From Marinobacter sp. es.048 (GTDB lineage Bacteria; Pseudomonadota; Gammaproteobacteria; Pseudomonadales; Oleiphilaceae): a stretch of DNA of 64,000 nt. A program made the translations under genes and the position numbers. The DNA is taken from contig NZ_FYFA01000001.1 in the NCBI RefSeq assembly GCF_900188435.1, positions 2,294,001 to 2,358,000 on the forward strand, written 5' to 3'. The notes below the pieces were generated by a model. The model saw only the letters and a list, made by a program, of their open reading frames with translations. It ran no database searches and was not told where the DNA came from. Below are positions 5,865-57,311 of this stretch, piece after piece. Numbering within the stretch: the first letter of the stretch is position 1; each line of letters begins with the position of its first letter.

Positions 5865-6027
5865 GTAGTGCCGGGTGCCTGTGGTCTGATTCGCCGTTTG
5901 ACAGCGTTTGGCGAGAAAAAGTTCGGATCCCCTGCTTGAAGAGGATTGTGATGCAATACATTATCACTGTCGGCATAATGCCTGCTTGTTAAATCCGCTT
6001 ATTATTTTGTGATGGTGTATCGCTAGT

Positions 6028-6255
6028 ATGGTTGATCGAACGCTTGATGCTTCCGGGTTGCGCTGCCCGATGCCGCTGCTGAAAACGAAATTGGAACTTA
6101 ACAGCATGGCGCCCGGCGAAGAACTCGAGGTGATCGCCACGGATGCGGGTTCGGCCCGTGACATCCCGGCCTTCCTGCAGCTGTCTGATCACCAGTTGAT
6201 GAGCAGTTCTGAAACCGCCGGGCAGTACCGGTTTGTGATAAAGTGCGGCGGTTAA
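6028..6255 (+). CDS. tusA: Sulfurtransferase TusA-family protein
   Basis: A 75-residue cytoplasmic protein with the hallmark LDASGLRCPMPLLKTK: the CPxP motif carries the persulfide-accepting cysteine. TusA relays sulfur from a cysteine desulfurase toward tRNA 2-thiouridine and other acceptors. Several SirA-like paralogues exist, so the exact acceptor is not certain. It lies 16 bases upstream of the PerM-like gene, suggesting cotranscription, and is divergent from bepA. Confidence 0.88.
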   Translation: MVDRTLDASGLRCPMPLLKTKLELNSMAPGEELEVIATDAGSARDIPAFLQLSDHQLMSSSETAGQYRFVIKCGG

Positions 6256-6271
6256 GATTTCGGAGCTGTAA

Positions 6272-7351
6272 ATGATCAGGACACTACGCGGTCTCGCGCA
6301 CAAATATTTCTCGGATGAAGAAGCTGTCATCCTGTTCCTCATACTGGTAACGGGGACCATCTTCGTCATCTGGTTCGGTGCCATGCTTGCGCCGGCCATC
6401 GCATCTTTGATCATAGCCTTTATTCTGCAGGGCCTGGTAACCAAGCTCAATAAACTGGGTGTGCCGGAGACGGTATCGATCATTGGCGTATTCCTGGTGT
6501 TCCTCGGCGTGCTCGTGGGCTTTCTTTTCGGCCTTTTACCGCTGATCTGGACCCAATTGAGCAACCTGGCCGGTGAAGCGCCGCGAATCATCCGCGAGCT
6601 GCAATCATATCTTGAACTGCTGCCGGAGCAGTATCCGCACCTGATCTCCGGAGAGGCTGTCAGCACTGTTTACAGTCAGGTAAGCACAGAGGTGGGGCAC
6701 ATGACGCAATGGCTGGTGTCCTTTTCACTGTCCAGTATTCCCGATCTGGTGGCATTACTGATCTACATGGTTCTGGTGCCCATCCTGGTGTTTTTCTTTC
6801 TGAAAGACCGTGAAGTTCTGCTCAACTCCATTGCAAAACTGCTGCCGCCCCAGCGCCCTATGATGCTGCAGATCTGGCACGAGGTGAATCTTCAGTGCGC
6901 CAACTATGTCCGCGGTAAGGCGGTGGAGATTCTGATCGTGGGCGGCGCCACCTACATTGGCTTCAAACTGCTCGGTATGCCCTATGCCGCGCTGCTCTCG
7001 CTGCTGGTCGGCCTGAGCGTGGTCATTCCCTACATCGGTGCCGCTGTTGTTACCATCCCCGTCGCGGTGATTGCGCTGTTCGCCTTTGGCTGGGGCAGTC
7101 AGTTCATCTGGGTCATGGTGGTGTACGGCGTTATCCAGGCGCTGGATGGTAACGTGCTGGTTCCGATTCTCTTCTCGGAGGTTAACAATCTGCACCCGGT
7201 GGCGATTATCGTCGCGGTATTGTTCTTCGGTGGCATCTGGGGTTTGTGGGGTGTTTTCTTTGCCATTCCGCTGGCAACCATGCTCAAGGCTGTGTTCGCT
7301 GCGTGGCCGGTAAAGGAGTCGCCGCCGCTGGCCGAAACCAGCGACGCCTGA
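6272..7351 (+). CDS. AI-2E/PerM family membrane transporter
   Basis: A 359-residue inner-membrane protein. Hydrophobic segments pair at residues about 20-70, there is a long central soluble region (about 90-150), and a C-terminal bundle contains GLSVVIPYIGAAVVTIPVAV and a PIL/SEVNNLHPVAIIVAV segment typical of the AI-2E transporter (PerM/YhhT/YdiK) family. The family includes exporters and Na+/H+ antiporters, and the substrate cannot be assigned here. It follows tusA closely, as PerM often does in gammaproteobacteria. Confidence 0.88.
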   Translation: MIRTLRGLAHKYFSDEEAVILFLILVTGTIFVIWFGAMLAPAIASLIIAFILQGLVTKLNKLGVPETVSIIGVFLVFLGVLVGFLFGLLPLIWTQLSNLAGEAPRIIRELQSYLELLPEQYPHLISGEAVSTVYSQVSTEVGHMTQWLVSFSLSSIPDLVALLIYMVLVPILVFFFLKDREVLLNSIAKLLPPQRPMMLQIWHEVNLQCANYVRGKAVEILIVGGATYIGFKLLGMPYAALLSLLVGLSVVIPYIGAAVVTIPVAVIALFAFGWGSQFIWVMVVYGVIQALDGNVLVPILFSEVNNLHPVAIIVAVLFFGGIWGLWGVFFAIPLATMLKAVFAAWPVKESPPLAETSDA

Positions 7352-7358
7352 AAGCTGC

Positions 7359-7826
7359 TTAAAGCGCCTTTACGGCCTCAAGGACTTGGTCGGCGTGGCC
7401 TTTGACTTTCACGCCGCGCCATTCCGCCCTCAGTACGCCATCTTTGTCGATCAGAAAGGTGCTCCGGTCGACGCCCATGTATTCCTTGCCGTAAAGCTTT
7501 TTCAGCTTGATCACGTCAAAGAGGGAGCACAGAGCCTCGTCTTTGTCTGAGATCAGGTGGAAAGGAAACTCGTGCTTGGCCCGGAAATTCTCATGGGCTT
7601 TCAGGCCATCCCTTGATACACCCAGAATCAGGGTATCAAGCTCCTCAAACTGCTTCATCCGGTCCCGGAAGTCCTGTCCCTCAGTGGTACAGCCAGGGGT
7701 GTTGTCTTTCGGATAGAAGTAAATCACTACATTTTGACCTTTCAGATCGTCGAGGCGAATGGTCTGGTCACCGGTAGCGGGAGCTTCAAAATCCGGAACG
7801 GGTTTGTTTAACTCAACGGATGGCAT
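7359..7826 (-). CDS. bcp: Thioredoxin-dependent peroxiredoxin (BCP/PrxQ type)
   Basis: A 155-residue cytoplasmic thiol peroxidase that reduces H2O2 and organic hydroperoxides. The peroxidatic cysteine is in YPKDNTPGCTTEGQDFRD. The nearby resolving cysteine found five residues later in E. coli Bcp is replaced here (Gln/Asp), so this is either a 1-Cys form or uses the later cysteine in EALCSLFD. It is divergent from dapA, with an AAAGGAG ribosome binding site upstream. Confidence 0.92.
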   Translation of the reverse strand: MPSVELNKPVPDFEAPATGDQTIRLDDLKGQNVVIYFYPKDNTPGCTTEGQDFRDRMKQFEELDTLILGVSRDGLKAHENFRAKHEFPFHLISDKDEALCSLFDVIKLKKLYGKEYMGVDRSTFLIDKDGVLRAEWRGVKVKGHADQVLEAVKAL

Positions 7827-7900
7827 GACATCTCCTTTAATTCCCTTGTGTCAGTTCGTGCCCAACATTACCATATCGGTTTTACTCGGACGGAGCTTTT

Positions 7901-9957: not shown

Positions 9958-10671
9958 ATGGAAAAACGCGAAGAACTTTATGCCGGCAAGGCAAAATCCG
10001 TCTACCGGACTGACAATCCCGACCGGTTTGTGTTGGAGTTCCGTGACGATACATCGGCCTTTGACGGCGAGAAGAAGGAACAGCTCAACCGTAAGGGCAT
10101 GGTGAACAACAAGTTCAATGCTTTTATTATGGAAAAGCTCGAAGCGGCGGGTGTACCGACCCATTTCGAGGGACTGCTGTCTTCCACCGAATCGCTCGTG
10201 AAGAAGTTGGACATGATTCCGGTTGAATGCGTGGTTCGCAACGTTTCCGCCGGCAGCCTCTGCCGCCGCCTAGGAGTCGAAGAAGGGCAGGAGCTCAACC
10301 CGCCCACGTACGAACTGTTTCTGAAAAACGACGCACTCCATGATCCCATGGTCAATGAATCGCTGGCCGTCAGCTTTGGCTGGGCCGCAGCCGATGAGCT
10401 GGATCAGATGAAAGAGCTCACCTACCGTGTAAACGACGTGCTCAAGGCCCTGTTTGAGGAAGCCGGGATGCTGTTGGTGGACTACAAGCTGGAGTTCGGC
10501 CGCAGTGACGGCAAGATTGTGTTGGGTGACGAATTTAGTCCGGACGGTTGCCGTATCTGGGACAAGGAAACCCGCAAGAAGATGGATAAGGATCGCTTCC
10601 GCCAGGGGCTTGGCGACGTTATCGAAACTTACGAAGAAGTCGGGCGCCGTTTGGGAATCCAGTTCGACTGA
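9958..10671 (+). CDS. purC: Phosphoribosylaminoimidazole-succinocarboxamide synthase
   Basis: A 237-residue cytoplasmic SAICAR synthetase that joins CAIR and aspartate in purine synthesis. The conserved N-terminal [12 protein letters not shown], the [14 protein letters not shown] segment and the [15 protein letters not shown] motif are visible, and the length equals that of the standard short PurC. The ATG at 9958 follows a CGGAG site. Confidence 0.96.
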
Positions 10672-31230: not shown

Positions 31231-31277
31231 AGTGGTAGGACCACCCAGATTCGAACTGGGGACCTCTACCATGTCAA
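31231..31277 (-). repeat. 47-bp partial duplicate of tRNA-Val 3-prime half (att-like)
   Basis: Identical over 47 bases to 33152-33198, which covers the 3-prime half of tRNA-Val from the anticodon to the CCA end. The match stops abruptly after the anticodon. It is in the same orientation as the intact gene, the hallmark of an integration site duplicated by a tRNA-targeting element. The adjoining 31278-31370 is rich in TTCGCRAA-like repeats that could be integrase arm sites. Confidence 0.88.
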
Positions 31278-31368
31278 AATTGCGATATGGAGTTCGCAAA
31301 TGCCTAAAAATTCGCGAAAAAATGCGAAAGTGCGACGAATCTAGCGAACGGCGCACTGTTACGCGACA

Positions 31369-31884: not shown

Positions 31885-32628
31885 CTAGGCAAGTTTCTTC
31901 TTTCTGGAAAACAAAATTCCAGTCAAACCAAGAAACAGAAGGGCAAGAGATCCTGGCTCTGGTACAGATTTTACGTCTGAATAGTTAATGGCATTATTCA
32001 CCATGCGACTTGAAACACCTTGAGATATTGGATCTAAGCTAAGCGCTAATGCTGTGAGCTCTGCGTTTTTAAGATCATTTATTGAGTTAGCAACACTATC
32101 AAGGTATAACGAGCTAAATGTAAGGAGTGAAACTGTCTCTCCCGCATCAACAGTTAGATCATAATACAGGTATGTAAAGGCACTGCCGAATGGTAAAAAT
32201 TCCGAGTTATCAAGAGTCCATTGGTTTTTCCCAAAGGTAAAAGCCACTGCTGGGTCTCTGCCTAATTGGGTTTCATTCGTCGTGTAAGTGTAATCTGTGG
32301 TGCTACTAACATAAGGCTGATCATCAGACCCCAGATTAGTAAAATATCGAATAGTCTGATTAATCACACTGCCTGTGTTATTTGTGAATGAATCATATAC
32401 GCCATAAGAAAAAATATCTTCTAGTGTGAAAACTTCGCGAGAAACAGATAATGAACCATAATTTTCTAATCTCTGAAATCCGTCATAGGCATCTCTGAGG
32501 CCATCGTTCACAGCATAAAAGCCGTTATAGAATGGTTGTGTGTTGTTGACAATTTCAGAAAGCGGTATTGGTGCCGAAATCGCCGAGCTAGATGCAAAAA
32601 GTAAGGCTGCAAAGAATAGCTTTTTCAT
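31885..32628 (-). CDS. PEP-CTERM sorted protein, mini-island copy
   Basis: A 247-residue exported protein. A signal peptide (MKKLFFAALLFASSSAISA) is followed by a Ser/Thr/Asn-rich body and a C-terminal sorting tag: VPEPGSLALLFLGLTGILFS then a basic RKKK end. Exosortase (XrtA type) removes such tags during export to the surface or extracellular polysaccharide. The body has no known fold that I can name. It lies alone between the two tRNA-Val att-like repeats and has its own sigma-54 type promoter. Its low GC compared with flanking genes suggests transfer. Confidence 0.85.
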   Translation of the reverse strand: MKKLFFAALLFASSSAISAPIPLSEIVNNTQPFYNGFYAVNDGLRDAYDGFQRLENYGSLSVSREVFTLEDIFSYGVYDSFTNNTGSVINQTIRYFTNLGSDDQPYVSSTTDYTYTTNETQLGRDPAVAFTFGKNQWTLDNSEFLPFGSAFTYLYYDLTVDAGETVSLLTFSSLYLDSVANSINDLKNAELTALALSLDPISQGVSSRMVNNAINYSDVKSVPEPGSLALLFLGLTGILFSRKKKLA

Positions 32629-33151: not shown

Positions 33152-33230
<79 letters not shown>

Positions 33231-36799: not shown

Positions 36800-37417
36800 T
36801 CAGAAAAAGCCGGATTCCCGAATGGCCTCAAAACCAAAGTGCAGTTTGACTTCATCACCGACCATCGCGCCATCAAGGCCGTAGGTCATCCCCCATTCAC
36901 TGCGTTTCAGCGTGGTGGAGGCACTGATGCCCAGCGTGTATTCCTCATGACCAAAAGGGTAGACGTCAGCCTTGTTGAGGGTCACATCCAGCACCACGGG
37001 CCGTGTCTGGCCAAGTAACTCCAGATCGCCCGTTACTTTGCCAGTGTTCTCGCCGGTAGTTTCGAAGTCGGTAATAGTAAAGGTAATCTCCGGATACTCG
37101 TCGGCGTCGAGGAAATCCTCGTTGCGAACGTGTTCGTCACGCTTCTTGTGGTTGGTGTACACACTGTCGCTCTGGAACACCAGCTGTCCGGATTCGAGCT
37201 CCCTGGCTTCCTCGTCATAAACGAACTGGCCCTCGACTTCACGGAACATGCCCATCACCGGGGCGTAACCGATATGCATGATCTCGAAGAACATCGAAAA
37301 GTGTTCGTCATCGACGACAAAGTTCTGCGGCTCGGCCATGGCTGCCGGGCTCAATGCGAGTGCCGCAGGCAGGGCAATGGCAGAGCGGGTGAGGGTTTTC
37401 CGATTAATGAACATCAT
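36800..37417 (-). CDS. YceI-family periplasmic lipid-binding protein
   Basis: A 205-residue exported protein. I chose the ATG at 37417 because AGGAGA precedes it and the signal peptide starts there (cleavage near AMA/EP). The mature part is the YceI lipocalin-like barrel: VVDDEHFSMFFEIMHIGYAP, FLDADEYPEITFTIT, VTGDLELLGQTRPVVLDVTL and STTLKRSEWGMTYGL. Family members bind isoprenoid or other amphipathic molecules. It overlaps the upstream CDP-alcohol phosphatidyltransferase by 14 bases, so the two are coupled. Confidence 0.9.
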   Translation of the reverse strand: MMFINRKTLTRSAIALPAALALSPAAMAEPQNFVVDDEHFSMFFEIMHIGYAPVMGMFREVEGQFVYDEEARELESGQLVFQSDSVYTNHKKRDEHVRNEDFLDADEYPEITFTITDFETTGENTGKVTGDLELLGQTRPVVLDVTLNKADVYPFGHEEYTLGISASTTLKRSEWGMTYGLDGAMVGDEVKLHFGFEAIRESGFF

Positions 37418-38138
37418 TGGGATGTCTCCTCTGATAAAGCCAGTGAATATCCAGGAAAAACGACCACACAAGCAGTGCGAGAGCAGTTGCAAGCGTGATA
37501 CTGGCGAACAGCGCATTGACCGGCGGCAACACGGCCACCAGCAGGGTAACGATCTGCCAAACGCAAACCGTCTTGCGTCTGAAACTCTCAGGCAGCGGGG
37601 CGTTCAGCCAATCGAGGAAGTGACTCGCAGCAACGAAGGCATAGCGAATAAGGCCCAGGGCCAGAACCCAGGGACCGGCCTTGCCCAGCGCCAGGGCAGC
37701 AACACTGAGGCCGAGAATAAACAGGGCATCCAGTTCCATGTCGAAGCGGGCGCCAAATTCGCTCTGGGAGCCGGTGGCTCGCGCTACTTTGCCGTCTACG
37801 CCATCGAGAACCAGCGCCAACAAAGCCATCCAGCCATAAAGCCAGAGGCTGTCAGTCAGTTGGTCGGCGAATGGGGCCAGAGCTACCAGTACTATTATCA
37901 GGCAACCCCTCAGGAGAGTTGCCCGGTTTGCCCAGCCGAAATCCCGGGCTTCGGGCCAGGCGCGGATAACAAGGACAGAAACGCTCAGGTACAGTGCTGT
38001 TGTCAGCAAATAGAAAAGCCCTGGCGGGGTGGTCAGCCAGCCTGTGGCCAAACAGAGCAGAGCGACAAGACCAAAACCCCAGGTGAGGTCCAGTGGCAGG
38101 GGAATCCTGTGGGAAGCTGAATGGCCGTTAGAATCCAT
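37404..38138 (-). CDS. CDP-alcohol phosphatidyltransferase family protein
   Basis: A 244-residue membrane enzyme from the ATG at 38138; a longer start at 38195 is possible. The catalytic motif DGxxAR...GxxxD...D is complete in DGKVARATGSQSEFGARFD with MELD following. About six hydrophobic helices surround it. The family makes phospholipids by joining CDP-diacylglycerol or a related donor to an alcohol; the acceptor here is unknown. It is divergent from the dehydrogenase gene and coupled to yceI, suggesting a lipid-linked product. Confidence 0.85.
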   Translation of the reverse strand: MDSNGHSASHRIPLPLDLTWGFGLVALLCLATGWLTTPPGLFYLLTTALYLSVSVLVIRAWPEARDFGWANRATLLRGCLIIVLVALAPFADQLTDSLWLYGWMALLALVLDGVDGKVARATGSQSEFGARFDMELDALFILGLSVAALALGKAGPWVLALGLIRYAFVAASHFLDWLNAPLPESFRRKTVCVWQIVTLLVAVLPPVNALFASITLATALALLVWSFFLDIHWLYQRRHPNDVH

Positions 38139-38307
38139 CACTGAACTCCAGCGTATAGGTTTGCAGACATCAAACACCCCGGATGCGCTGTACACTGACT
38201 ATAGTTGATATGTCTGATTGTGCGTACGAGCATTGACCGCGTTCAGACCTGAAGGTTCAGCCCGGGAAGGACCTCGAACAGATACTGTGAAGAGAAAGGA
38301 GTTCCCA

Positions 38308-39315
38308 TTGCAACGCGATTCTGATGTTCCGGATACGAAGACAATGGCCCGGGCCTGGTGGGTAACCGGCGCTGGCAAGGGCGAGATTCAGGAAACACCG
38401 CTTGAGCAGCCGGGTGGTGAAAAGGAAGAAGAGCTGGTCACTGTTCAGGCCCTCTATTCCGGCATCAGCCGGGGTACCGAATCACTGGTTTTTCATGGCC
38501 GGGTCCCCAGGAGTGAATACTCGGCAATGCGTGCACCTTTTCAGGCGGGGGATTTCCCCTGGCCGGTGAAGTACGGCTACGCCAACGTTGGCAAGGTTGT
38601 GGAAGGGCCTGCCGAGTTAATGGGGCAAACGGTGTTCTGCCTGTATCCGCACCAGAATTGCTACCGAGTGCCGGCGTCGGCGGTAACGCCTTTGCCGAGA
38701 GACTTGCCCGCCGCGCGAGCAATCCTTGCGGCCAATATGGAAACCGCGGTCAACGGCCTCTGGGATGGAGCGCCAGCGGTCGGTGATCGGATTGCCGTGG
38801 TTGGTCTCGGTGTGGTTGGTCTGCTCGTCGCCTGGCTGGCCAGCCGTATCCCGGGAACCCGTGTTACCGCAATCGACACGAATCCAGAAAGACAGGCCGT
38901 TGCCGAACAACTGGGGCTGACCTTCAGCAGCGAATCCGGCGCCGATGATCACGACCTGGTGATCCATGCCAGTGGCCACCCGTCGGGCCTGGAGACCGCC
39001 CTTGAGCTGGCGGGGCAGGAGGCGACCATTGTGGAAATGAGCTGGTACGGTGATCAGCTGGTATCTGCACCTTTGGGGGCCGCATTCCACCCGCGGCGCC
39101 TGACCCTGAAATCCAGTCAGGTGGGCCAGATTGTGCCCTCCCGAGTCCCACGATGGGGCTATCGCAAACGCCTGGCGCTCGCGTTGGAATTGCTCCAGGA
39201 CGATGCACTGGATGCGCTGATTACCGGCGAGTGCAAGTTTGATGATTTGCCAAAGTCCATGGCACGAATTCTGATTGATGGCCGGGAGACTCTCTGCCAT
39301 CGCGTTGTTTATTGA
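38308..39315 (+). CDS. MDR-family dehydrogenase without zinc motifs
   Basis: A 335-residue medium-chain dehydrogenase/reductase. I favour the TTG at 38308, which follows AAAGGAG at seven bases; ATG 38344 is an alternative. The N-terminal catalytic fold has YSGISRGTE instead of the usual GICGTD and lacks the GHE catalytic-zinc motif and the four-cysteine structural site. The Rossmann motif VVGLGVVGLLVAWLA is clear. It is first of a close series with the PTPS-like and glycosyltransferase genes. Confidence 0.78.
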   Translation: MQRDSDVPDTKTMARAWWVTGAGKGEIQETPLEQPGGEKEEELVTVQALYSGISRGTESLVFHGRVPRSEYSAMRAPFQAGDFPWPVKYGYANVGKVVEGPAELMGQTVFCLYPHQNCYRVPASAVTPLPRDLPAARAILAANMETAVNGLWDGAPAVGDRIAVVGLGVVGLLVAWLASRIPGTRVTAIDTNPERQAVAEQLGLTFSSESGADDHDLVIHASGHPSGLETALELAGQEATIVEMSWYGDQLVSAPLGAAFHPRRLTLKSSQVGQIVPSRVPRWGYRKRLALALELLQDDALDALITGECKFDDLPKSMARILIDGRETLCHRVVY

Positions 39316-39344
39316 TTATCCAAATTACCTGCTAAGGAGAGACT

Positions 39345-39743
39345 ATGTTCGGTTTGACGGTCCGGGACCACATGATGATTGCCCACAGCTTCAATGGAGA
39401 GATCTTTGGTCCTGCGCAGAAGGTGCATGGTGCCACCTATGTGGTGGACGTGACTTTTGAGCGTCACCAACTGGATAAAGACGACCTGGTGGTCGACATC
39501 GGCCTGGCTTCCGAGCTTCTTAACAACATCCTCTCCGAATTCAATATGCAGAACCTGGACGAGCTGCCGGAACTGCGTGGCCGGAATACCACCACTGAGT
39601 TCATGGCTAAACTGGTGTTCGATCGTATGGCGGCAGCCATTCATGGTGGCCGGCTGGGTGAGACAGGGAAAGGGATTGTCAGCCTGAAAGTCACCCTCTC
39701 TGAATCCCACATTGCCTGGGCCAGCTACCATGCCGGAATCTGA
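39345..39743 (+). CDS. 6-pyruvoyl-tetrahydropterin synthase-like protein
   Basis: A 132-residue protein with the T-fold layout of PTPS/QueD. His14 (AHSF) and His28 (HGA) are where zinc ligands lie, but the usual HGH motif is HGA, so one ligand is missing, and the catalytic cysteine before it is also absent. The LDKDDLVVDIGLASELLNNI segment and the C-terminal SESHIAWASY glutamate are conserved. It may therefore catalyse a different step. ATG follows AAGGAGAG. It overlaps the next gene by 14 bases. Confidence 0.78.
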   Translation: MFGLTVRDHMMIAHSFNGEIFGPAQKVHGATYVVDVTFERHQLDKDDLVVDIGLASELLNNILSEFNMQNLDELPELRGRNTTTEFMAKLVFDRMAAAIHGGRLGETGKGIVSLKVTLSESHIAWASYHAGI

Positions 39744-41670
39744 TGCACCGGGTTCCGTCGAGTTTCTGGTTCCGGGCGATCCGGAGCAGAATACCGGCGG
39801 CTACCGGTATGTCCGCAAGCTGGTTGAGGCGCTTTGCGAGGTCGGTGTTGTGGCCCGGGTAAGTGGTTTACCGGGGCAGTTTCCGCGCCCGGACAAGGTT
39901 GCCCGCAACGCGATGGATCAAAAACTTGCGAGCCTGCCCGATGGCACCTCTGTTTTACTCGATGGCCTTGCCATGGGTGGCCTGCCGGGAATCGTCGAAA
40001 AGCATTCCCAGCGCCTGAATCTGCTTGCTCTTGTACATCACCCCCTTGCTGACGAAACAGGCATCGGTGAAGCCGACAGGCAGTGGTTTTTTGATTCTGA
40101 AAAGCGGGCGCTCGGGTTTGTGAAGGGTGTTATCACCACCAGCCGACACACTGCCGACCGTCTGGCGGATTACGATGTGCCGGCCGAGGCTATTCGGATT
40201 GCTGAGCCGGGTGTTTCCAGAGCCAAGAACCCGAAAGTCCGAAACGAAACTCCTGAAAACAATGGGCCCCACATTCTCTGTGTCGCCCACCTGTCACCAA
40301 GAAAAGCCCAGCACCAACTGGTGAAAGCGCTGGAAAGTCTCATCAGCTTCCCTTGGCAGTGTACGCTGGCAGGATCTGACAGTCGTGATCCACAATACAG
40401 CCAACAGGTGCGTCGGGCGATTGCAGAAGCCGGCCTGGGAGACAGGATTCAACTGGTCGGTGAAGTGGACGAGACCAGCCTTGCCGATCTCTACCAGCAG
40501 GCTGATTTCTTTGTACTGCCGTCGCTCTACGAGGGCTATGGCATGGTGATTGATGAGGCGTTGGCCGAGGGGCTGCCCGTCATTTCCTCTGATGGCGGTG
40601 CCCTTGCCGCAACCTCAGCGAGACCGGGGGTGGTTCAGTATTGCGTCGGCGATGTCAGGGCCCTCCAGGCCCGTATCAGGAACTGGCTGGAACATCCGGA
40701 TCAGTTCGAGCATTGCCGCAAACTTGCCGCCAGAGAATCCAGGCGGATTCGCTCATGGGCTGATACCGCCAGGGACGTTAGCGAGGCGTTGCGATACTTC
40801 CGGGGGCTTCCTCCCCACCTGCACCAGCATTCTGAATTCGAGAGCGACTGGCTGGCGGCCCGGGAGGCAGCAGACCATCGTGCGCGCTCAAGGGAATTGA
40901 CCGATGAGCTAAACCAGTGGCTTCTCAGTCACTACGAAAGCCTGCCGCCTGAAAGCCATTGCCCGATGCAGATTGTCGACATTGGCACCGGCCGTGGCTC
41001 CAACGCCCTGTTCCTGGTCCCTCCGTTGCAGGTGCCTCAAAGCTGGCTGGCTCTGGATCAGGATGCTGCGCTACTGCGCGAGGCCCGACAGCGGGTGGAA
41101 TTACTGGATGTGCCATTTGAAACCCGAACCGTGCAGTTGTCGCCAGAGAATATGGAGCAACATCTGCCTGCCCAGCTTGCCCTTGTTACGGCATCAGCAC
41201 TGATTGATCTTGTTTCAGAACCGTGGCTGAAAGCCCTCAGCCAGGCGGCGTCGCGCAGGAACGCAGCGATGCTGATCGTGCTGAGCTATGCAGGGCATTT
41301 TGAATTGTCCCCTGGTCATCCCGACGATGAGCTGCTTCAGACTCTGGTGAATCAACACCAGCACGCCGACAAGGGTACCGGTGCGGCGCTTGGGCCGGAC
41401 GCCCCGATCGTTCTTAAGGACCTGCTTCAAGCGGAAGGTTACCGGGTTAAATTGGCGGAATCCCCCTGGTCTTTAAGCAGCGAGGATCAGGCGTTGGCCA
41501 GGATGCTCATGCAGGGCTGGACCGAGGCGGCCATCGAGCAGTCTCCGGCAGACAGAGACCGACTGACCCTCTGGCTGGAAACCCGGAACCGTCAGTTGTC
41601 TGAGGGCAAACTGAAGGTTGTGGTCCGGCATCTGGATCTGCTGGCATTGCCACCCGGGGAGCTGCCTTGA
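39730..41670 (+). CDS. Glycosyltransferase family 4 / methyltransferase fusion
   Basis: A 646-residue two-domain protein. The N-terminal two thirds is a GT-B glycosyltransferase with EYDVPAEAIRIAEPGVSR-type linker, PHILCVAHLSPRKAQHQLV and the nucleotide-sugar motif PSLYEGYGMVIDEALAEGLP. From about residue 390 a class I methyltransferase follows (QIVDIGTGRGSNALFLVPP, ALDQDAALL). It overlaps the PTPS-like gene by 14 bases and the flippase-like gene by four, so all are translated as a unit. The acceptor is unknown. Confidence 0.82.
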   Translation: MPESDAPGSVEFLVPGDPEQNTGGYRYVRKLVEALCEVGVVARVSGLPGQFPRPDKVARNAMDQKLASLPDGTSVLLDGLAMGGLPGIVEKHSQRLNLLALVHHPLADETGIGEADRQWFFDSEKRALGFVKGVITTSRHTADRLADYDVPAEAIRIAEPGVSRAKNPKVRNETPENNGPHILCVAHLSPRKAQHQLVKALESLISFPWQCTLAGSDSRDPQYSQQVRRAIAEAGLGDRIQLVGEVDETSLADLYQQADFFVLPSLYEGYGMVIDEALAEGLPVISSDGGALAATSARPGVVQYCVGDVRALQARIRNWLEHPDQFEHCRKLAARESRRIRSWADTARDVSEALRYFRGLPPHLHQHSEFESDWLAAREAADHRARSRELTDELNQWLLSHYESLPPESHCPMQIVDIGTGRGSNALFLVPPLQVPQSWLALDQDAALLREARQRVELLDVPFETRTVQLSPENMEQHLPAQLALVTASALIDLVSEPWLKALSQAASRRNAAMLIVLSYAGHFELSPGHPDDELLQTLVNQHQHADKGTGAALGPDAPIVLKDLLQAEGYRVKLAESPWSLSSEDQALARMLMQGWTEAAIEQSPADRDRLTLWLETRNRQLSEGKLKVVVRHLDLLALPPGELP

Positions 41671-42593
41671 CGGAACTGCGTCAAAAGCGGGTACGGCTGG
41701 CGGTCAGGTGGTTGTTCACTGTATTGATCATCGGATTCGTTATCCGCTCCGTGGATGCGAGCGCGCTCTGGCAGGAGCTCGCCGGTTTTTCTCCGTATGT
41801 TCTGGTACCTGCCCTGGTGCTCACGGTCGTTCAGGTGGCACTCTCTGCCTGGCGTTGGCGTTACACCGTAGAGAGGCTTGGATTACCTCTCGACTATGGC
41901 GTTGCCGTCCGGGAATACTATCTGGCCACGTTTCTCAACCAGGTTCTGCCAGGTGGCGTCCTTGGTGATGTAAACCGGGCATGGCGCCATGGAACGGGAG
42001 CCGGCGAACGTCTCTCAGCCGTCCATGGGGTGGCCATCGAGCGTTTCTCGGGCCAGTTGGTGCTGGTGGTGGTTGCCATTTCTGTCGCTTGGCTTCTCGC
42101 TTCCGGGCAGCTGACTACTGGTCATTGGAATGGTGGGTTGTGGCTCGGTGTCGGTATTCTCTTTGTTGTCGTCGCTTTTTGGCTCGCACTGAAAGTGGGG
42201 ATTGCAGATTACCTGCAGCGCCTGCGGCGCGATCTGTATCTGTCGTTGTTGAACCGCATGGTGTTGCCGGTTCAGATTGGCTCTTCGTTAGTGGTGTTGG
42301 CGACCTATCTTGGGGTATTCCTCTGCCTCGCCTGGGGGGCGGATTATCTCGATACAGCGGCATCGGTGGCCATCATTGCCGGCCTTGGCAGTATTCTCCT
42401 TCTGAGCATGGTCATACCGCTAACGGTTGCCGGCTGGGGTATCCGGGAGGGCGCCGCCGCGGTGCTCTGGCCTATGGCCGGATTGCCTGCGGAGCAGGGG
42501 GTGGCGCTGAGTGTGGGGTATGGGGCGTTGGTGTTGATTTCCAGTTTGCCCGGAATGGTTTTTTTGTTCACTGGCCGGCCGGAGAACGGGTAA
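41667..42593 (+). CDS. UPF0104 / lysylphosphatidylglycerol-synthase-type membrane protein
   Basis: A 308-residue inner-membrane protein with about eight helices. Family markers are LVLTVVQVALSAWRWRYTVERL, the QVLPGGVLGDVNRAWRHG loop and GWGIREGAAAVLWPMAGLP. The family contains the membrane part of MprF-like flippases and proteins in glycolipid clusters. Start is TTG in a TTGA overlap with the previous stop. Likely moves a lipid-linked product of the neighbouring glycosyltransferase. Confidence 0.82.
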   Translation: MTELRQKRVRLAVRWLFTVLIIGFVIRSVDASALWQELAGFSPYVLVPALVLTVVQVALSAWRWRYTVERLGLPLDYGVAVREYYLATFLNQVLPGGVLGDVNRAWRHGTGAGERLSAVHGVAIERFSGQLVLVVVAISVAWLLASGQLTTGHWNGGLWLGVGILFVVVAFWLALKVGIADYLQRLRRDLYLSLLNRMVLPVQIGSSLVVLATYLGVFLCLAWGADYLDTAASVAIIAGLGSILLLSMVIPLTVAGWGIREGAAAVLWPMAGLPAEQGVALSVGYGALVLISSLPGMVFLFTGRPENG

Positions 42594-42605
42594 GTTCGGA
42601 TTGTT

Positions 42606-42639
42606 TGTCGGATTACGCCTTTGGCTAATCCGACCTACG
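42606..42639. repeat. REP palindrome
   Basis: Reverse form of GTAGGTCGGATTAGCNNNAG followed by GCGTAATCCGACA. It lies between convergent flippase-like and RibD-like genes. Same family as those in the prp operon. Confidence 0.85.
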
Positions 42640-43507
42640 TGTCACGGGAAAAATCGAGGTCGAAGAGCATATCGCTGCCGAGGTTTATAAGCTGCGCCCG
42701 CGGCCGCAAGGCATCATCCAGAAAGTCGATCTCGGGAAGCGAGAAGGCTGGTCTGCCGCTGCCGATGATCATGGGCGCGACCATCACATGTAGCCGGTCC
42801 AGCAAGCCTGCGTTGAGAAACGAGGAGACGGTGACGCCGCCCCCTTCCACGAATAACTTTTTCAAACCGAAATCCGCCAGAACCTGAACGATCAATTTTG
42901 GATCAACGGGTTGCTCAGCGTCCGCGTCCCCAAGACAGGGAATCTCGGTAACACCCGGACCGATAGACGGGTTCTCGCTTTTCTCGTACTGGCCAGCCAC
43001 CAAACGTAGGGTGGGGGCTTCACCGTCGGTAAACAGGTGATGGCTGTCCGGTACGCGATGGTGACGGTCAATAACCACACGTACCGGGTTGCGACCGCTG
43101 GTGCGGCGTACGGTCAGGCGGGGATTATCGGTGGAGGCAGTGCCGGCACCCACGATGACCGCATCGGACACCGCGCGGATCCGGTGTAGATGGGTAATCC
43201 CGTCGTCGCCGTTGATGAAACGGGAGCGGCCGGTCACCGTCGCAATCCGCCCGTCGAGGCTCTGGCCCAGTTGGCCGATGACTTTGGGGCGACCATCATC
43301 TGGCACGGGTCGACACAGGGGAAGAAACACCGAGAGCAGATCCTTCGCCTCGCCAGTGGCCGGTTGCATCAGGTGCCAGGCACCGTGGCCATTGAGTTTT
43401 ACTGCTTCTTTGTCAGTTCCCGGCAATGGCAGTGTCACATTGCTGCGGTTAACTGCGCTAAGTACCAACTCCCATGCCGAGTCGATATCCAGTGTTCTTG
43501 CCACCAT
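42635..43507 (-). CDS. RibD C-terminal-type reductase
   Basis: A 290-residue protein whose last about 200 residues form the RibD_C/DHFR-like reductase fold: KVIGQLGQSLDGRIAT, then SDAVIVGAGTASTDNPRLTV, LFVEGGGVTVSSFLNAGLLD and VMVAPMIIGSG. The zinc deaminase domain of full RibD (HAE and PCxxxG) is absent, and the N-terminal 85 residues are unassigned. It should reduce a ribosylated pyrimidine or pterin-like substrate. It is convergent with the PTPS/glycosyltransferase series. Confidence 0.82.
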   Translation of the reverse strand: MVARTLDIDSAWELVLSAVNRSNVTLPLPGTDKEAVKLNGHGAWHLMQPATGEAKDLLSVFLPLCRPVPDDGRPKVIGQLGQSLDGRIATVTGRSRFINGDDGITHLHRIRAVSDAVIVGAGTASTDNPRLTVRRTSGRNPVRVVIDRHHRVPDSHHLFTDGEAPTLRLVAGQYEKSENPSIGPGVTEIPCLGDADAEQPVDPKLIVQVLADFGLKKLFVEGGGVTVSSFLNAGLLDRLHVMVAPMIIGSGRPAFSLPEIDFLDDALRPRAQLINLGSDMLFDLDFSRDT

Positions 43508-43901: not shown

Positions 43902-44738
43902 TTATTTGCCTTTCTTGTAAATATTTTCGTAGACGTAGTTGGTCGCTTCCACAAAGCCATCAATGCTGCCGCAATCGAACCTGCGCCCTTTAAACTGATA
44001 GGCCAGCACGCAACCGTTTTTCGCCTGTTCGAGAAGGGCATCGGTAATCTGGACTTCACCATTCTTGCCCGCCGGGGTCTTCTCAATAATCTCGAAAATG
44101 TCCGGCGTAAGAATGTATCGCCCAATGATAGCGAGGTTGCTCGGGGCATCTTCCGGGGCTGGTTTTTCCACCATGTCGGTGATTCGATAGAGGCCATCTT
44201 TCATGGATTCACCGGCAATCACTCCATACTTGTGAGTTTCGTCAGCCGGTACTTCTTCAATCGCAACAATTGAGCAGCGGAACTGATTATAAAGTTTAAC
44301 CATCTGCGCCATTACGCCGTCTTCACCTTCGGGGCCAATGCAGAAGTCATCCGCCAGCACTACCGCGAACGGGTTGTCACCCACCAGATTCCGACCGGTC
44401 AGAATGGCGTGGCCCAGGCCCTTCATCTCATTCTGCCGGGTAAAGGCAAAACTGTTGTGATCAATGAGGTCTCGGATGGAGGTGAGCAGCTCTTCCTTGC
44501 CAGAGCCGGCGATCTGTTGTTCGAGCTCGTAGCTGATGTCGAAATGATCTTCAATAGCCCGCTTGCCCCGACCAGTTACGAAGCCAAATTCATGAATACC
44601 GGCTTCCGCGGCTTCCTCAACGCCATATTGAACCAGAGGTTTGTTCACCACCGGCAGGATTTCCTTGGGCATCGCCTTGGTGGCCGGAAGAAAACGGGTG
44701 CCGTAGCCGGCGACGGGAAACAGGCATTTTTTGATCAT
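43902..44738 (-). CDS. galU: UTP-glucose-1-phosphate uridylyltransferase
   Basis: A 278-residue cytoplasmic enzyme making UDP-glucose for polysaccharides and glucans. The nucleotide motif FPVAGYGTRFLPATKAMPKE and the VLADDFCIG and VVNKPLVQYGVEEA segments are conserved. I chose the ATG at 44738 (MIKKCLFPVAG) because it has AAAGGAC upstream; an in-frame start 84 bases earlier would add unrelated residues. UDP-glucose is also the donor for the osmoregulated glucans handled by the OpgD-like protein nearby. Confidence 0.95.
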   Translation of the reverse strand: MIKKCLFPVAGYGTRFLPATKAMPKEILPVVNKPLVQYGVEEAAEAGIHEFGFVTGRGKRAIEDHFDISYELEQQIAGSGKEELLTSIRDLIDHNSFAFTRQNEMKGLGHAILTGRNLVGDNPFAVVLADDFCIGPEGEDGVMAQMVKLYNQFRCSIVAIEEVPADETHKYGVIAGESMKDGLYRITDMVEKPAPEDAPSNLAIIGRYILTPDIFEIIEKTPAGKNGEVQITDALLEQAKNGCVLAYQFKGRRFDCGSIDGFVEATNYVYENIYKKGK

Positions 44739-44967
44739 ATCGTTCGTCCTTTGATGGTCGGTTTCACGGCCTGTGGGCTGCTCAACGCATCTGCGTAAGC
44801 CAATCAATAATTGTTCTATCACAAAGTGTGCCGAGTTTACCCAAGTTGTAACGACAAATGCAGGGGAGTGTGGAAAATTGTAAGTTTTAGCAAAGAGCTA
44901 TGGTCTGAGGACCGACAGTCTCTTAAAGTTCATCATTACTGAAGATTCATCTGATCAGGCGTCTCTT

Positions 44968-46221: not shown

Positions 46222-47808
46222 ATGGACAGACGAACGCTGATCAAAGGGCTGGCGGCACTGATGAGTGCCGGCTCGTTACCTTTGGTGCCCTTCGTGCACG
46301 GTGCCGGCATTCAACCGGTACCTGGCAGCCGGCCCCATGCATTCAGCTATGCCTGGTTAAAGGGCCGCGCCCGGGCACTGGCAGCCGAGACGTATCTATC
46401 CCATGAAGGTGAGTTACCCCAATCCCTGAAAACTCTCCCCTGGGATGACTACCAGGCTATTGCTTTTCTGGCCGACCAGGCGCTGTGGCGTGACGACGAT
46501 ACCGCTTTCCAGGTTCAGCTCTTCCACCTTGGACTTTATTTCCAGCAGCCCGTCAAAATTCATGAAGTGGTTGATGGTGAAGCTACCGAATTGGCCTATA
46601 GACAGGATCTGTTCCGGTACAACGGCGATCAGCCTCTGGGCGATTTGCCAGAGGACCTGGGCTACGCCGGTTTTCGGATTCACTACCACAACAACTTTGC
46701 CCTGGATCTGGCCGCCTTCCTGGGCGCCAGCTATTTCCGGGCGGTTGGCTCAGAGATGCAGTATGGTCTGTCGGCCAGGGGGCTGGCGATTGATACCGGC
46801 ATGGATCGCGAAGAAGAGTTTCCCCGGTTTTCCGAATTCTGGCTGGAAAAGCCGGCACCAGGCAGCCAACTGCTTCGGGTATGGGCGCTGCTGGATTCTC
46901 CCAGCACCACCGGCGCCTACGCGTTCGTGCTCGACCCCGGGCGCCATATGGTCATGGACGTGGATGTAGCGCTTTACCCGAGAACGGAAATCACCCGTGC
47001 AGGGATTGCGCCGCTGACCAGCATGTACCAGGTGGGTGAAAATGACGATCGCATGGGCTATGACTGGCGGCCGGAAATACACGATTCCGACGGCCTGGCC
47101 ATACGCAACGGCAACGGCGAGTGGTTGTGGCGGCCGTTGGTGAATCCTGCGAATCTCCGGTTCAACAGTTTCCAGGATATCAACCCCGTCGGCTTCGGCC
47201 TGTTGCAGCGCGACAGGAATTTCGACCACTACCAGGATGACGGCGTGTTTTACGATCGCCGGCCCAGCCTCTGGGTGGAGCCCCGCGGAGACTGGGGGCG
47301 GGGCAGTGTTGATCTGGTGGAAATCCCCACCGTGGATGAAACCTTCGATAACATCGTCGCCTTCTGGCACCCGGAAAAACCTCTGTTGCCAGGCCGGGAG
47401 TACCTCTTCAGCTACCGCCTGCACTGGGGCGAGCAAGCTCCGTTACAGCCCTATGAGTTGGCCACAGTGCGGGCAACCCGGACGGGTCTGGGTGGTGTCG
47501 TGGGCCAGAAACGAACCTACTTTTCATGGCGTTTTGCTGTTGATTTCGCGGGTGGCGCGCTTGAAATGCTTGGCAAGAATGCGGATGTAGAGCCCGTCAT
47601 CAGTGTGAGCAGGGGAGAGGTTGAGATTACCTCCGCCAGACCATTGTCTGCAATCGACGGCTACCGGGCCATGTTCGACCTGGTGCCGGATGACTCCATT
47701 GAACCTATCAATATCCGCCTGTACCTCAAGCTGGGCGCCGAGCCGCTGACGGAGACCTGGTTATATCAATACACACCGCCAACGGTTGCCGAACGCCAGA
47801 TCTATTGA
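46222..47808 (+). CDS. opgD: Periplasmic glucan biosynthesis protein OpgD/OpgG
   Basis: A 528-residue protein with a probable Tat signal (MDRRTLIKGLAALMSAGSLP), which points to OpgD rather than OpgG. The conserved OpgG/MdoG beta-sandwich follows: LGYAGFRIHYHNN, FLGASYFRAVGSEMQYGLSARG, then NRQTYFSW-like QKRTYFSWRFAVDFAGG near the C-terminus. These proteins shape osmoregulated periplasmic glucans. The OpgH synthase is not in the window. Confidence 0.88.
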   Translation: MDRRTLIKGLAALMSAGSLPLVPFVHGAGIQPVPGSRPHAFSYAWLKGRARALAAETYLSHEGELPQSLKTLPWDDYQAIAFLADQALWRDDDTAFQVQLFHLGLYFQQPVKIHEVVDGEATELAYRQDLFRYNGDQPLGDLPEDLGYAGFRIHYHNNFALDLAAFLGASYFRAVGSEMQYGLSARGLAIDTGMDREEEFPRFSEFWLEKPAPGSQLLRVWALLDSPSTTGAYAFVLDPGRHMVMDVDVALYPRTEITRAGIAPLTSMYQVGENDDRMGYDWRPEIHDSDGLAIRNGNGEWLWRPLVNPANLRFNSFQDINPVGFGLLQRDRNFDHYQDDGVFYDRRPSLWVEPRGDWGRGSVDLVEIPTVDETFDNIVAFWHPEKPLLPGREYLFSYRLHWGEQAPLQPYELATVRATRTGLGGVVGQKRTYFSWRFAVDFAGGALEMLGKNADVEPVISVSRGEVEITSARPLSAIDGYRAMFDLVPDDSIEPINIRLYLKLGAEPLTETWLYQYTPPTVAERQIY

Positions 47809-56468: not shown

Positions 56469-57311
56469 ATGAACACAGCACTTAAAAGAACCCTTCTATC
56501 AACGGTTGTCCTGCCTTTGACTCTCGGCGCGGCATCTGCCAGTGCGGTGATGATTGAAGAGTGGGGCTATGACGTCGACAGTAACTTCTCTAACACGAGC
56601 TACACTGCAGCAGATGGTGATAACGACGGCACCATTGTTGAATCTGATAATGAATTGTCATGGGGCGGCAGTCTTGATCCTGCTTCGGAGGATCGGTCTT
56701 CGGTTTCAATCGAGGATGTATCTTCGGCAGGCGGTCTTTTCACCAATGTGAACACCGTAGATGGTGGAACCTTTACCCACGACAACAATATTATCAATGC
56801 CGATTTTCAGTCGCTGACAGGATTTGATCTGACGTCCACGCTGATATTGACTCCCGTTGATCCCGCCGGGCCAGCGTTGGAGCCAACATCGCTGACGTTC
56901 ATGAGTTTCTTCAGTGAAACATTCAACAGGGATGAGCCCGGAGACTGTAGTTTCCCATCAACCTCAGCGTGTGATGACATCTTCACCATTGATAATTTTG
57001 ACGAGCTAGGTGCCGTGGATAATGGTGAAGGAGGCTTCGAGTTCGCTCAGTCGTTCGTCATCGCCGATTACAAGTATACGGTGTTTCTGGAGTTGGCCGG
57101 CCTTGCGGTCCTGGATGATGACGCCTGTACAGCAGCAGGAGCCAGCTCTGGATGTGTCGGTCTTCTGACTCTTGAGGATACCGAAAACAACTTCGACACC
57201 AGTTTCCGGATCACCGCGTCAAAGGTACCTGAGCCTGGCACGCTTGCATTGCTGGGCCTTGGCCTTGCCGGCTTGGGTCTGTCACGCAGGAGAAAAGCAG
57301 CAAGTGCATAA
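56469..57311 (+). CDS. PEP-CTERM sorted protein
   Basis: A 280-residue exported protein. Signal peptide cleaved near ASA/VM, then an Asp/Ser/Thr-rich body that begins IEEWGYDVDSNFSNTSY and includes THNEL-like DNELSWGG, two cysteine pairs (CSFPSTSAC, CTAAGASSGC) and the tag VPEPGTLALLGLGLAGLGLS with RRRK. A THxN-family-like layout is possible. Strong AAGGAGAG ribosome binding site. Divergent from the previous PEP-CTERM gene. Confidence 0.9.
   Translation: MNTALKRTLLSTVVLPLTLGAASASAVMIEEWGYDVDSNFSNTSYTAADGDNDGTIVESDNELSWGGSLDPASEDRSSVSIEDVSSAGGLFTNVNTVDGGTFTHDNNIINADFQSLTGFDLTSTLILTPVDPAGPALEPTSLTFMSFFSETFNRDEPGDCSFPSTSACDDIFTIDNFDELGAVDNGEGGFEFAQSFVIADYKYTVFLELAGLAVLDDDACTAAGASSGCVGLLTLEDTENNFDTSFRITASKVPEPGTLALLGLGLAGLGLSRRRKAASA

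Follow-up and report, generated by a model that had tools for sequence, protein, structure and literature searches.

In a 64,000-nucleotide stretch of the genome of Marinobacter sp. es.048 (contig NZ_FYFA01000001.1, positions 2,294,001 to 2,358,000; hereafter the window, whose own numbering is used below), a cluster of seven genes includes one for a PTPS-like protein of the subfamily PTPS-IV. We are almost certain that these genes serve one pathway. As judged from their sequences, they form a conserved unit in which PTPS-IV lacks catalytic residues, a CDP-alcohol phosphatidyltransferase keeps its motif and genes for envelope functions recur nearby. It is likely that the pathway starts from GTP-derived pyrimidine chemistry and, with somewhat less assurance, probable that a glycosylated product leaves the cytoplasm; linkage of the product to a phospholipid in Marinobacter has an even chance. 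The overall reading that we prefer, which in our judgement is evenly balanced, is that a single mobile pathway methylates and glycosylates a GTP-derived diaminopyrimidine or pterin, often puts it on a phospholipid and exports it.

Conservation of the PTPS-IV gene neighbourhood

We assembled 104 cluster loci, all chosen by their PTPS gene: the window, 80 loci from GTDB genomes (the best 80 of at least 588 PTPS relatives found by a profile scan), 7 plasmid loci and 16 survey loci. The set is redundant, with many near-duplicates from Marinobacter, Halomonas and Streptomyces, and several loci are metagenome bins, both Gemmatimonadota loci included. Partners were scored with hidden Markov models (HMMs) made from these loci themselves (for MdoG, MdoH and a sulfatase-like protein, from one sequence each), at more than 40 bits for the counts and 60 bits for identity correlations; partner absences are upper bounds because some loci stop at contig ends. 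Stretches of 12-20 kb were taken from 20 survey places, 13 with the FGPAQ type of PTPS, 3 with a second subfamily and 4 with QueD-like proteins. The latter (L143-L145, L159) served as controls and were left out of the 104, as were the ~3-kb survey loci (L001-L024, L112-L134) and six further loci (L160-L165).

In the 104 loci, the PTPS gene (104, by selection) is accompanied by an MDR dehydrogenase in 104, a GT4 glycosyltransferase in 103 and a methyltransferase in 101. A CDP-alcohol phosphatidyltransferase is found in 82, a RibD-type reductase in 76, an LPG_synthase_TM membrane protein (LPG_TM) in 71, a creatininase-family protein in 59, and RibA, a predicted GTP cyclohydrolase II of the kind that the original prediction had proposed to look for among constant partners, in 66. 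Less frequent are MdoH (33), FkbM (29), MdoG (27), the sulfatase-like protein (17), cytochrome b561 (12) and YceI (9 by HMM; 25 of 88 loci by BLAST single-linkage grouping). In two loci (L110, L151) GT4 lies some kilobases off and may be a different GT4, and the three loci in which the methyltransferase was not found are L080, L151 and L057, the last of which stops at a contig end. Gene order is largely kept across phyla; GT4 and the methyltransferase are separate genes in many other lineages and fused in Marinobacter.

The same association was observed in samples drawn from genome surveys. Among 398 Pseudomonadota genomes there were 42 PTPS matches at E up to 1e-10, and an MDR gene lies within the 1.5-kb flank of PTPS in 27 of the 27 matches below 1e-40; of the 15 weaker matches, the four examined, which are the QueD-like controls, have none of the partners. 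A survey of 194 genomes of the window's order returned 24 PTPS matches, comprising 17 of the FGPAQ type, all with MDR, six subfamily-2 members, each accompanied by MDR and RibD, and a fragment that has no partners. A plasmid tblastn search gave 24 records, and MDR adjoins PTPS in 10 of the 11 regions examined, 7 of which entered the 104-locus count. The smallest clusters are built on MDR, PTPS and methyltransferase: these three genes alone in Halobellus limi, and the three with RibD and a ribokinase in Rhodobacteraceae SC52. L163-L165, outside the count, hold this trio. Among the remaining loci outside the count, L161 lies at a contig end and two hold orphan PTPS-IV genes (L160 in genome G571, 10049-10444, flanked by MdoG-MdoH-MdoG; L162, 10001-10399).

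Within Marinobacter (61 genomes), PTPS is present in 35, the cluster RibD in 33 and the CDP-alcohol transferase in 35. PTPS and cluster RibD agree in 59 of the 61 (33 with both, 26 with neither; Fisher p 3e-15) and so do PTPS and the CDP-alcohol transferase (34 both, 25 neither; p 7e-15), shared ancestry being ignored in both tests. The exceptions are G596, whose contig stops after PTPS, G571, with PTPS alone beside MdoG and MdoH, and G594, a 62% complete genome with the CDP-alcohol gene and no PTPS. Pairwise identities of the partners also track those of PTPS (r 0.67-0.91, 0.83 for the CDP-alcohol transferase; maximum of 300 permutations for any partner, 0.44), and shared species ancestry contributes to this tracking. 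The original prediction had named a failure to co-occur in other genomes as evidence against itself; the genes co-occur across phyla. We give negligible probability to the view that the neighbours are coincidental housekeeping genes: each family is common by itself and the two orphan PTPS-IV genes exist, but this view is contradicted by the cross-phylum conservation, the 27/27 MDR adjacency, the identity tracking and the co-occurrence in Marinobacter.

The cluster was found in Proteobacteria, Actinobacteria, Gemmatimonadota bins and haloarchaea, and on plasmids. Plasmids that carry PTPS together with partners come from Streptomyces, Rhizobium, Agrobacterium, Methylosinus, Microbacterium, Palleronia, Thiodictyon, Rhodobacteraceae SC52, Haloarcula and Halobellus. 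A tree built from four core proteins (52 rows, midpoint root, quick method) places Actinobacteria and Gemmatimonadota inside Proteobacteria and groups Castellaniella with Salinisphaera; this interleaving of phyla is as expected from horizontal transfer. Within the Haloarcula cluster (L107), a reading frame at 5919-7889 has Gfo/Idh-type and aldo-keto reductase matches and is probably a fusion.

When gene boundaries and family matches were called again, all seven window genes were recovered where they had been predicted. On the forward strand, a BchC-like MDR dehydrogenase (38308-39315; TIGR01202 BchC 54 bits, far under the cut-off of 291), likely starting at a TTG preceded by AAAGGAG, is followed by the PTPS-like T-fold protein (39345-39743; PF01242, E 8e-24), a fusion of a GT4 glycosyltransferase and a class I S-adenosylmethionine (SAM) methyltransferase (39730-41670; PF00534 and PF13649) and the 'flippase-like' LPG_TM protein (41667-42593; PF03706, E 2e-34), the last three genes sharing exactly 14 and 4 bases. 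On the reverse strand lie the RibD_C-type reductase (42635-43507; PF01872, E 1e-40), the CDP-alcohol phosphatidyltransferase (37404-38141; PF01066, E 2e-16) and a YceI-like periplasmic protein (36800-37414; PF04264, E 6e-41) with an apparent signal peptide, judged by eye, which we regard as an accessory. The predicted coupling of these last two genes was borne out by an 11-base overlap. All seven family labels were found again, with the reservation that the Pfam matches of MDR (29 bits, cut-off 31.8) and of the methyltransferase (PF13649, 23.8 bits, cut-off 27) are sub-threshold. Directly after the LPG_TM gene, at 42607-42635, stands a short inverted-looking sequence, GTCGGATTACGCCTTTGGCTAATCCGACC, terminator- or repeat-like, the core of which occurs once in the window.

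The PTPS-IV protein and its partner enzymes

With E up to 0.001, the window PTPS has a single relative of solved structure, SCO6650 of Streptomyces coelicolor (PDB 3d7j, E 3e-49). The motif FGPAQ, named in PMC5445326 as the signature of PTPS-IV, is present in the window protein and in 100 of 108 aligned sequences, the window counted (104 cluster copies and the 4 QueD-like controls); the eight without it are the four controls and four members of subfamily 2, the HAHHY subfamily (L107, L140-L142). His14, His28, Asp51 and Glu120 are invariant in 108/108, and position 30, where the third zinc His would stand, holds Ala in 100 sequences and His in the other 8. A Cys between His14 and His28 occurs in 0/104 cluster copies and in 4/4 controls, and the Asp-His pair was likewise seen in the 4/4 controls only, three cluster copies keeping the Asp alone; subfamily 2 keeps the three zinc His and lacks the Cys. 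We take the roles of these residues to be those of catalytic Cys, zinc ligands, catalytic pair and ring-anchoring Glu. Membership of the QueD/PTPS groups (PTPS-I, II) was rejected, the catalytic Cys and the pair His being gone from all cluster copies, and the alignment indicates that PTPS-IV keeps the fold and the ring anchor and has lost the residues for PTPS/QueD chemistry. The genome of the window (G000) has one further PTPS-family match, a partial one at C1:2072562-2072690, which lies in a 296-aa open frame and is perhaps a housekeeping QueD.

PTPS-IV of COG0720, as described in PMC5445326 and PMC5041015, shares with the clusters reported here both FGPAQ and the neighbours PF00925 (GTP cyclohydrolase II) and PF01872 (RibD), which are already printed in the former. 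RibD is in the window, RibA is not in the window cluster, and across the loci the two reach the 66 and 76 of 104 given above. The claim of the original prediction that no known pathway combines these genes therefore holds for function and has to yield for these two neighbours. The parts of these accounts that were available make no mention of the MDR, GT4, methyltransferase, CDP-alcohol, flippase and glucan partners or of the HAHHY subfamily. In the literature searched, with most subscription papers outside its scope, we found no published PTPS-IV function or description of the full cluster, nor the full gene set, the second PTPS subfamily, the cluster MdoH or the transferase partner. A role of PTPS-IV in coenzyme F420 synthesis is mentioned as unpublished in PMC5041015, with FGPAQ as the mark of PTPS-IV in PMC5445326; we hold it very improbable, and reject it for the window host, since a search for CofD had 0 matches in this nearly complete genome and was positive in 10 of 14 control genomes. 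Barring another F420 route there, the role is contradicted in this host.

Family scans of the window RibD_C protein matched PF01872 alone and no deaminase domain, and its identity as a riboflavin RibD, a deaminase fused to a reductase, was rejected. Its best PDB relatives, 6p8c and 2azn, are diaminopyrimidinone ribotide reductases, and it scores 117 bits against NCBIfam TIGR01508 (cut-off 186); we propose that it is a 2,5-diamino-6-ribosylaminopyrimidinone 5'-phosphate reductase. A separate housekeeping role for each gene would have spoken against the original prediction; for RibD the opposite was found, because a housekeeping copy sits elsewhere in 61/61 Marinobacter genomes and the cluster RibD is thus an extra copy. 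In the same genus, two or more GTP cyclohydrolase II genes are present in 21/21 genomes examined (in the window genome, both on a contig other than that of the cluster), and a creatininase exceeds the cut-off in 0/21, with one sub-threshold match. Across the 104 loci, RibA and creatininase occur together in 55, RibA alone in 11 and creatininase alone in 4. Cluster RibA retains its zinc motif, and at the position of E. coli Tyr105, presumably a key RibA position whose change from Tyr to Met we associate with work on SCO6655, the 58 copies have Tyr (37), Met (16, Streptomyces), His (3, Actinomadura) or Ile (1), with one not aligned.

Streptomyces clusters that we fetched run in the order PTPS, GT4, methyltransferase, LPG_TM, creatininase, RibA; creatininase and RibA are present and RibD was not found in them, the reverse of the window cluster. 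If this order in other Streptomyces is carried over to the gene numbers of S. coelicolor, SCO6652 would be the cluster methyltransferase, and PMC3610822 gives it, in a table of development genes, the values 0.8, 4.3 and 4.1. SCO6655, five gene numbers past SCO6650, is listed as GTP cyclohydrolase II in PMC2853524; there it is anticorrelated with predicted flux (-0.61), within a set of which most genes rise in stationary phase.

These enzymes might also be read as a module for extra riboflavin or flavin-precursor supply standing beside unrelated envelope genes. GTP cyclohydrolase II and RibD-type reductases are indeed flavin-pathway families, but Marinobacter has the housekeeping copies just described of both, no deaminase domain was matched in the window RibD, flavin enzymes are not among the most constant partners (MDR, PTPS, methyltransferase), and SCO6655 expression opposed the predicted flux of the annotated riboflavin reaction (PMC2853524). 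We therefore consider this explanation improbable. The MDR protein, with its G.G..G...D motif and, in most copies listed, an acidic residue ending strand 2, is probably NAD-dependent. The predicted structure of the methyltransferase (pLDDT 96) gave generic class I matches in a fold search. Because small clusters hold MDR, PTPS and methyltransferase, the last probably works with the other two and not solely on a sugar, although it is fused to GT4 in Marinobacter.

Envelope genes and the proposed product

The sequence D..DG..AR..G...D...D is intact in 87/87 matches of the CDP-alcohol transferase at the loci, which include some few second copies from beyond the cluster; we take DxxDGxxARx(7-9)GxxxDxxxD to be the motif of CDP-alcohol phosphatidyltransferases. 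We propose that this enzyme makes a phospholipid with the pathway product as head group and that the LPG_TM protein is a flippase.

Genes for periplasmic glucan synthesis are a second recurrent theme. The fetched flanks contain MdoG or MdoH in 40 of the 104 loci, and in 49 when the sulfatase-like protein is counted too. In 7 of the 13 FGPAQ-type survey loci from outside the window's order, MdoH lies ~2 kb from PTPS, centre to centre; these seven genomes hold one or two MdoH each, so that by our estimate such proximity would arise by chance well below 1% per locus. Five of the seven have a second, different MdoH elsewhere, and the cluster copy is closer to the Methylosinus cluster query. The Methylosinus cluster MdoH itself exceeds the cut-offs of NF003958 (480.6 over 419) and NF003962 (474 over 328) and stays under those of the other MdoH models, NF003963 among them. 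A former idea that the CDP-alcohol and MdoH modules exclude each other was dropped, many loci carrying both. In the window, MdoG (46222-47808, forward strand; PF04349, E 5e-200) has no adjacent MdoH, the only MdoH match of the search in this genome being at C1:495141, and it is a possible linked module, the case for which is weak in this genome; in the near relative L025, MdoG and MdoH stand side by side. Just beyond the cluster, at 43902-44822, lies a GalU-kind nucleotidyltransferase (PF00483), which would presumably make UDP-glucose, the donor for MdoH-type enzymes.

For the sulfatase-like partner, a sequence profile searched against the PDB gave nothing useful and a fold search gave more. 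Its one model has N-terminal helices and an alkaline-phosphatase domain (pLDDT 76, pTM 0.65), and the best folds were LtaP/LtaS, an alkaline-phosphatase-superfamily protein, GacH, EptC and MCR-1; on this model, the fold resembles that of headgroup transferases (LtaS/EptC). The Haloarcula cluster has a weak sulfatase-family match, below the Pfam cut-off.

From these families, the following sequence of steps can be proposed. GTP would be opened by a GTP cyclohydrolase II that the cluster or, in Marinobacter, the housekeeping genes provide, and the creatininase-family amidohydrolase, where present, may take off the formyl group. The stand-alone RibD_C reductase would then yield a ribityl-aminopyrimidine phosphate that retains its 2-amino group, which the near-constant trio of PTPS-IV, MDR and SAM methyltransferase would turn into a methylated pterin-like or pyrimidine compound, PTPS-IV holding the 2-amino-4-oxo ring through its conserved Glu without PTPS/QueD chemistry. 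GT4, plus FkbM where present, would add and modify a sugar. Finally, the CDP-alcohol transferase would load the compound onto a phospholipid and the LPG_TM protein carry it across the membrane; in many lineages, an MdoH-type glucan synthase, an LtaS/EptC-like transferase or both may join it to periplasmic glycans.

Several observations weigh against this scheme. Cluster RibA, creatininase, transferase and MdoH are all absent from the window; among the 104 loci, 22 showed no CDP-alcohol transferase, 28 no RibD and 38 no RibA. No GT4 stands beside the trio in Halobellus, Rhodobacteraceae SC52 or L156, and Marinobacter G571 and one Streptomyces plasmid carry PTPS-IV without the cluster. The methyltransferase fold search points to no substrate. 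The transferase model is of middling quality, with TM-scores of ~0.3-0.4 on the query, and a true sulfatase appears at rank 7 of its fold search with more below. One Streptomyces creatininase scores 141 bits against MftE (cut-off 172) and 37 against ArfB (cut-off 180), far enough under the latter that we rejected ArfB as its identity. Since 35 of the 37 Tyr-type RibA copies are also accompanied by a creatininase, a deformylase role is not cleanly supported; the idea of a helper for a RibA whose reaction ends with the formyl group still in place finds partial support, Met being present in the 16 Streptomyces copies.

The product may instead be soluble: a pterin or pyrimidine, glycosylated, methylated and exported, that serves as natural product or cofactor and is never on a lipid, with the CDP-alcohol and flippase genes as separate add-ons. 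The loci without a detected CDP-alcohol transferase and the small clusters, made up of MDR, PTPS, methyltransferase and sometimes RibD, fit such a product, but 82 of 104 loci, from several phyla, retain the transferase, each match checked has an intact motif, and the divergence of the enzyme follows that of PTPS; we regard the soluble product as rather unlikely. Of the original suggestion of a glycosylated, lipid-linked pterin- or pyrimidine-derived compound, the GTP-derived, glycosylated and methylated parts fit the data, and the lipid link is plausible, with the transferase motif behind it, unproven and not universal.

In its widest form, which we consider doubtful, our lipid-linked reading would describe a new class of envelope molecule, in which a pterin-like head group derived from GTP, methylated and glycosylated, is made on a phospholipid, flipped and, in many lineages, moved to periplasmic glucan that a dedicated MdoH makes; it would have spread horizontally across bacterial phyla and haloarchaea, and cytochrome b561 would possibly keep it reduced as a surface redox or light-protective layer. 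If true, the reading would place PTPS-IV, a COG0720 subfamily whose structure has been solved, in the context of a function and a product, and connect the chemistry of GTP-derived heterocycles with the assembly of phospholipids and periplasmic glucan. The uneven distribution of the cluster in one genus (35 of 61 Marinobacter) offers natural comparisons with and without it.

Related systems and neighbouring features

Parts of the cluster resemble pathways that are already understood. The archaeal and fungal flavin route begins with GTP cyclohydrolase, ArfB and DARPP reductase, and its early part shares with the clusters GTP cyclohydrolase II, a creatininase-family protein and a stand-alone RibD_C; it differs in that the cluster creatininase is below the ArfB cut-off and the other partners are not flavin enzymes. 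Phosphatidylinositol mannosides combine a CDP-alcohol transferase with a GT4 enzyme, as the cluster does, and OpgGH glucan is modified by LtaS/OpgB-type transfer, just as MdoG/MdoH and an LtaS/EptC-like transferase are found near the clusters. Unlike in these systems, the head group proposed here is a GTP-derived heterocycle, and we know of no lipid or glucan that carries one. Cyanopterin, a cyanobacterial pterin glycoside, shares the idea of a glycosylated, methylated pterin, a likeness of product type.

A lower-GC stretch at ~16-34 kb of the window encodes MobI, two transposase-type integrase cores, HipA and an Xre/MbcA/ParS antitoxin. Beside it, the 3' part of a tRNA-Val gene has a 54-base copy, 94% identical and 1.9 kb from that gene (31231-31284 and 33152-33205), so that the region resembles a mobile island sited at tRNA-Val. 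Two PEP-CTERM motif proteins are encoded at 31885-32628 and 56469-57311.

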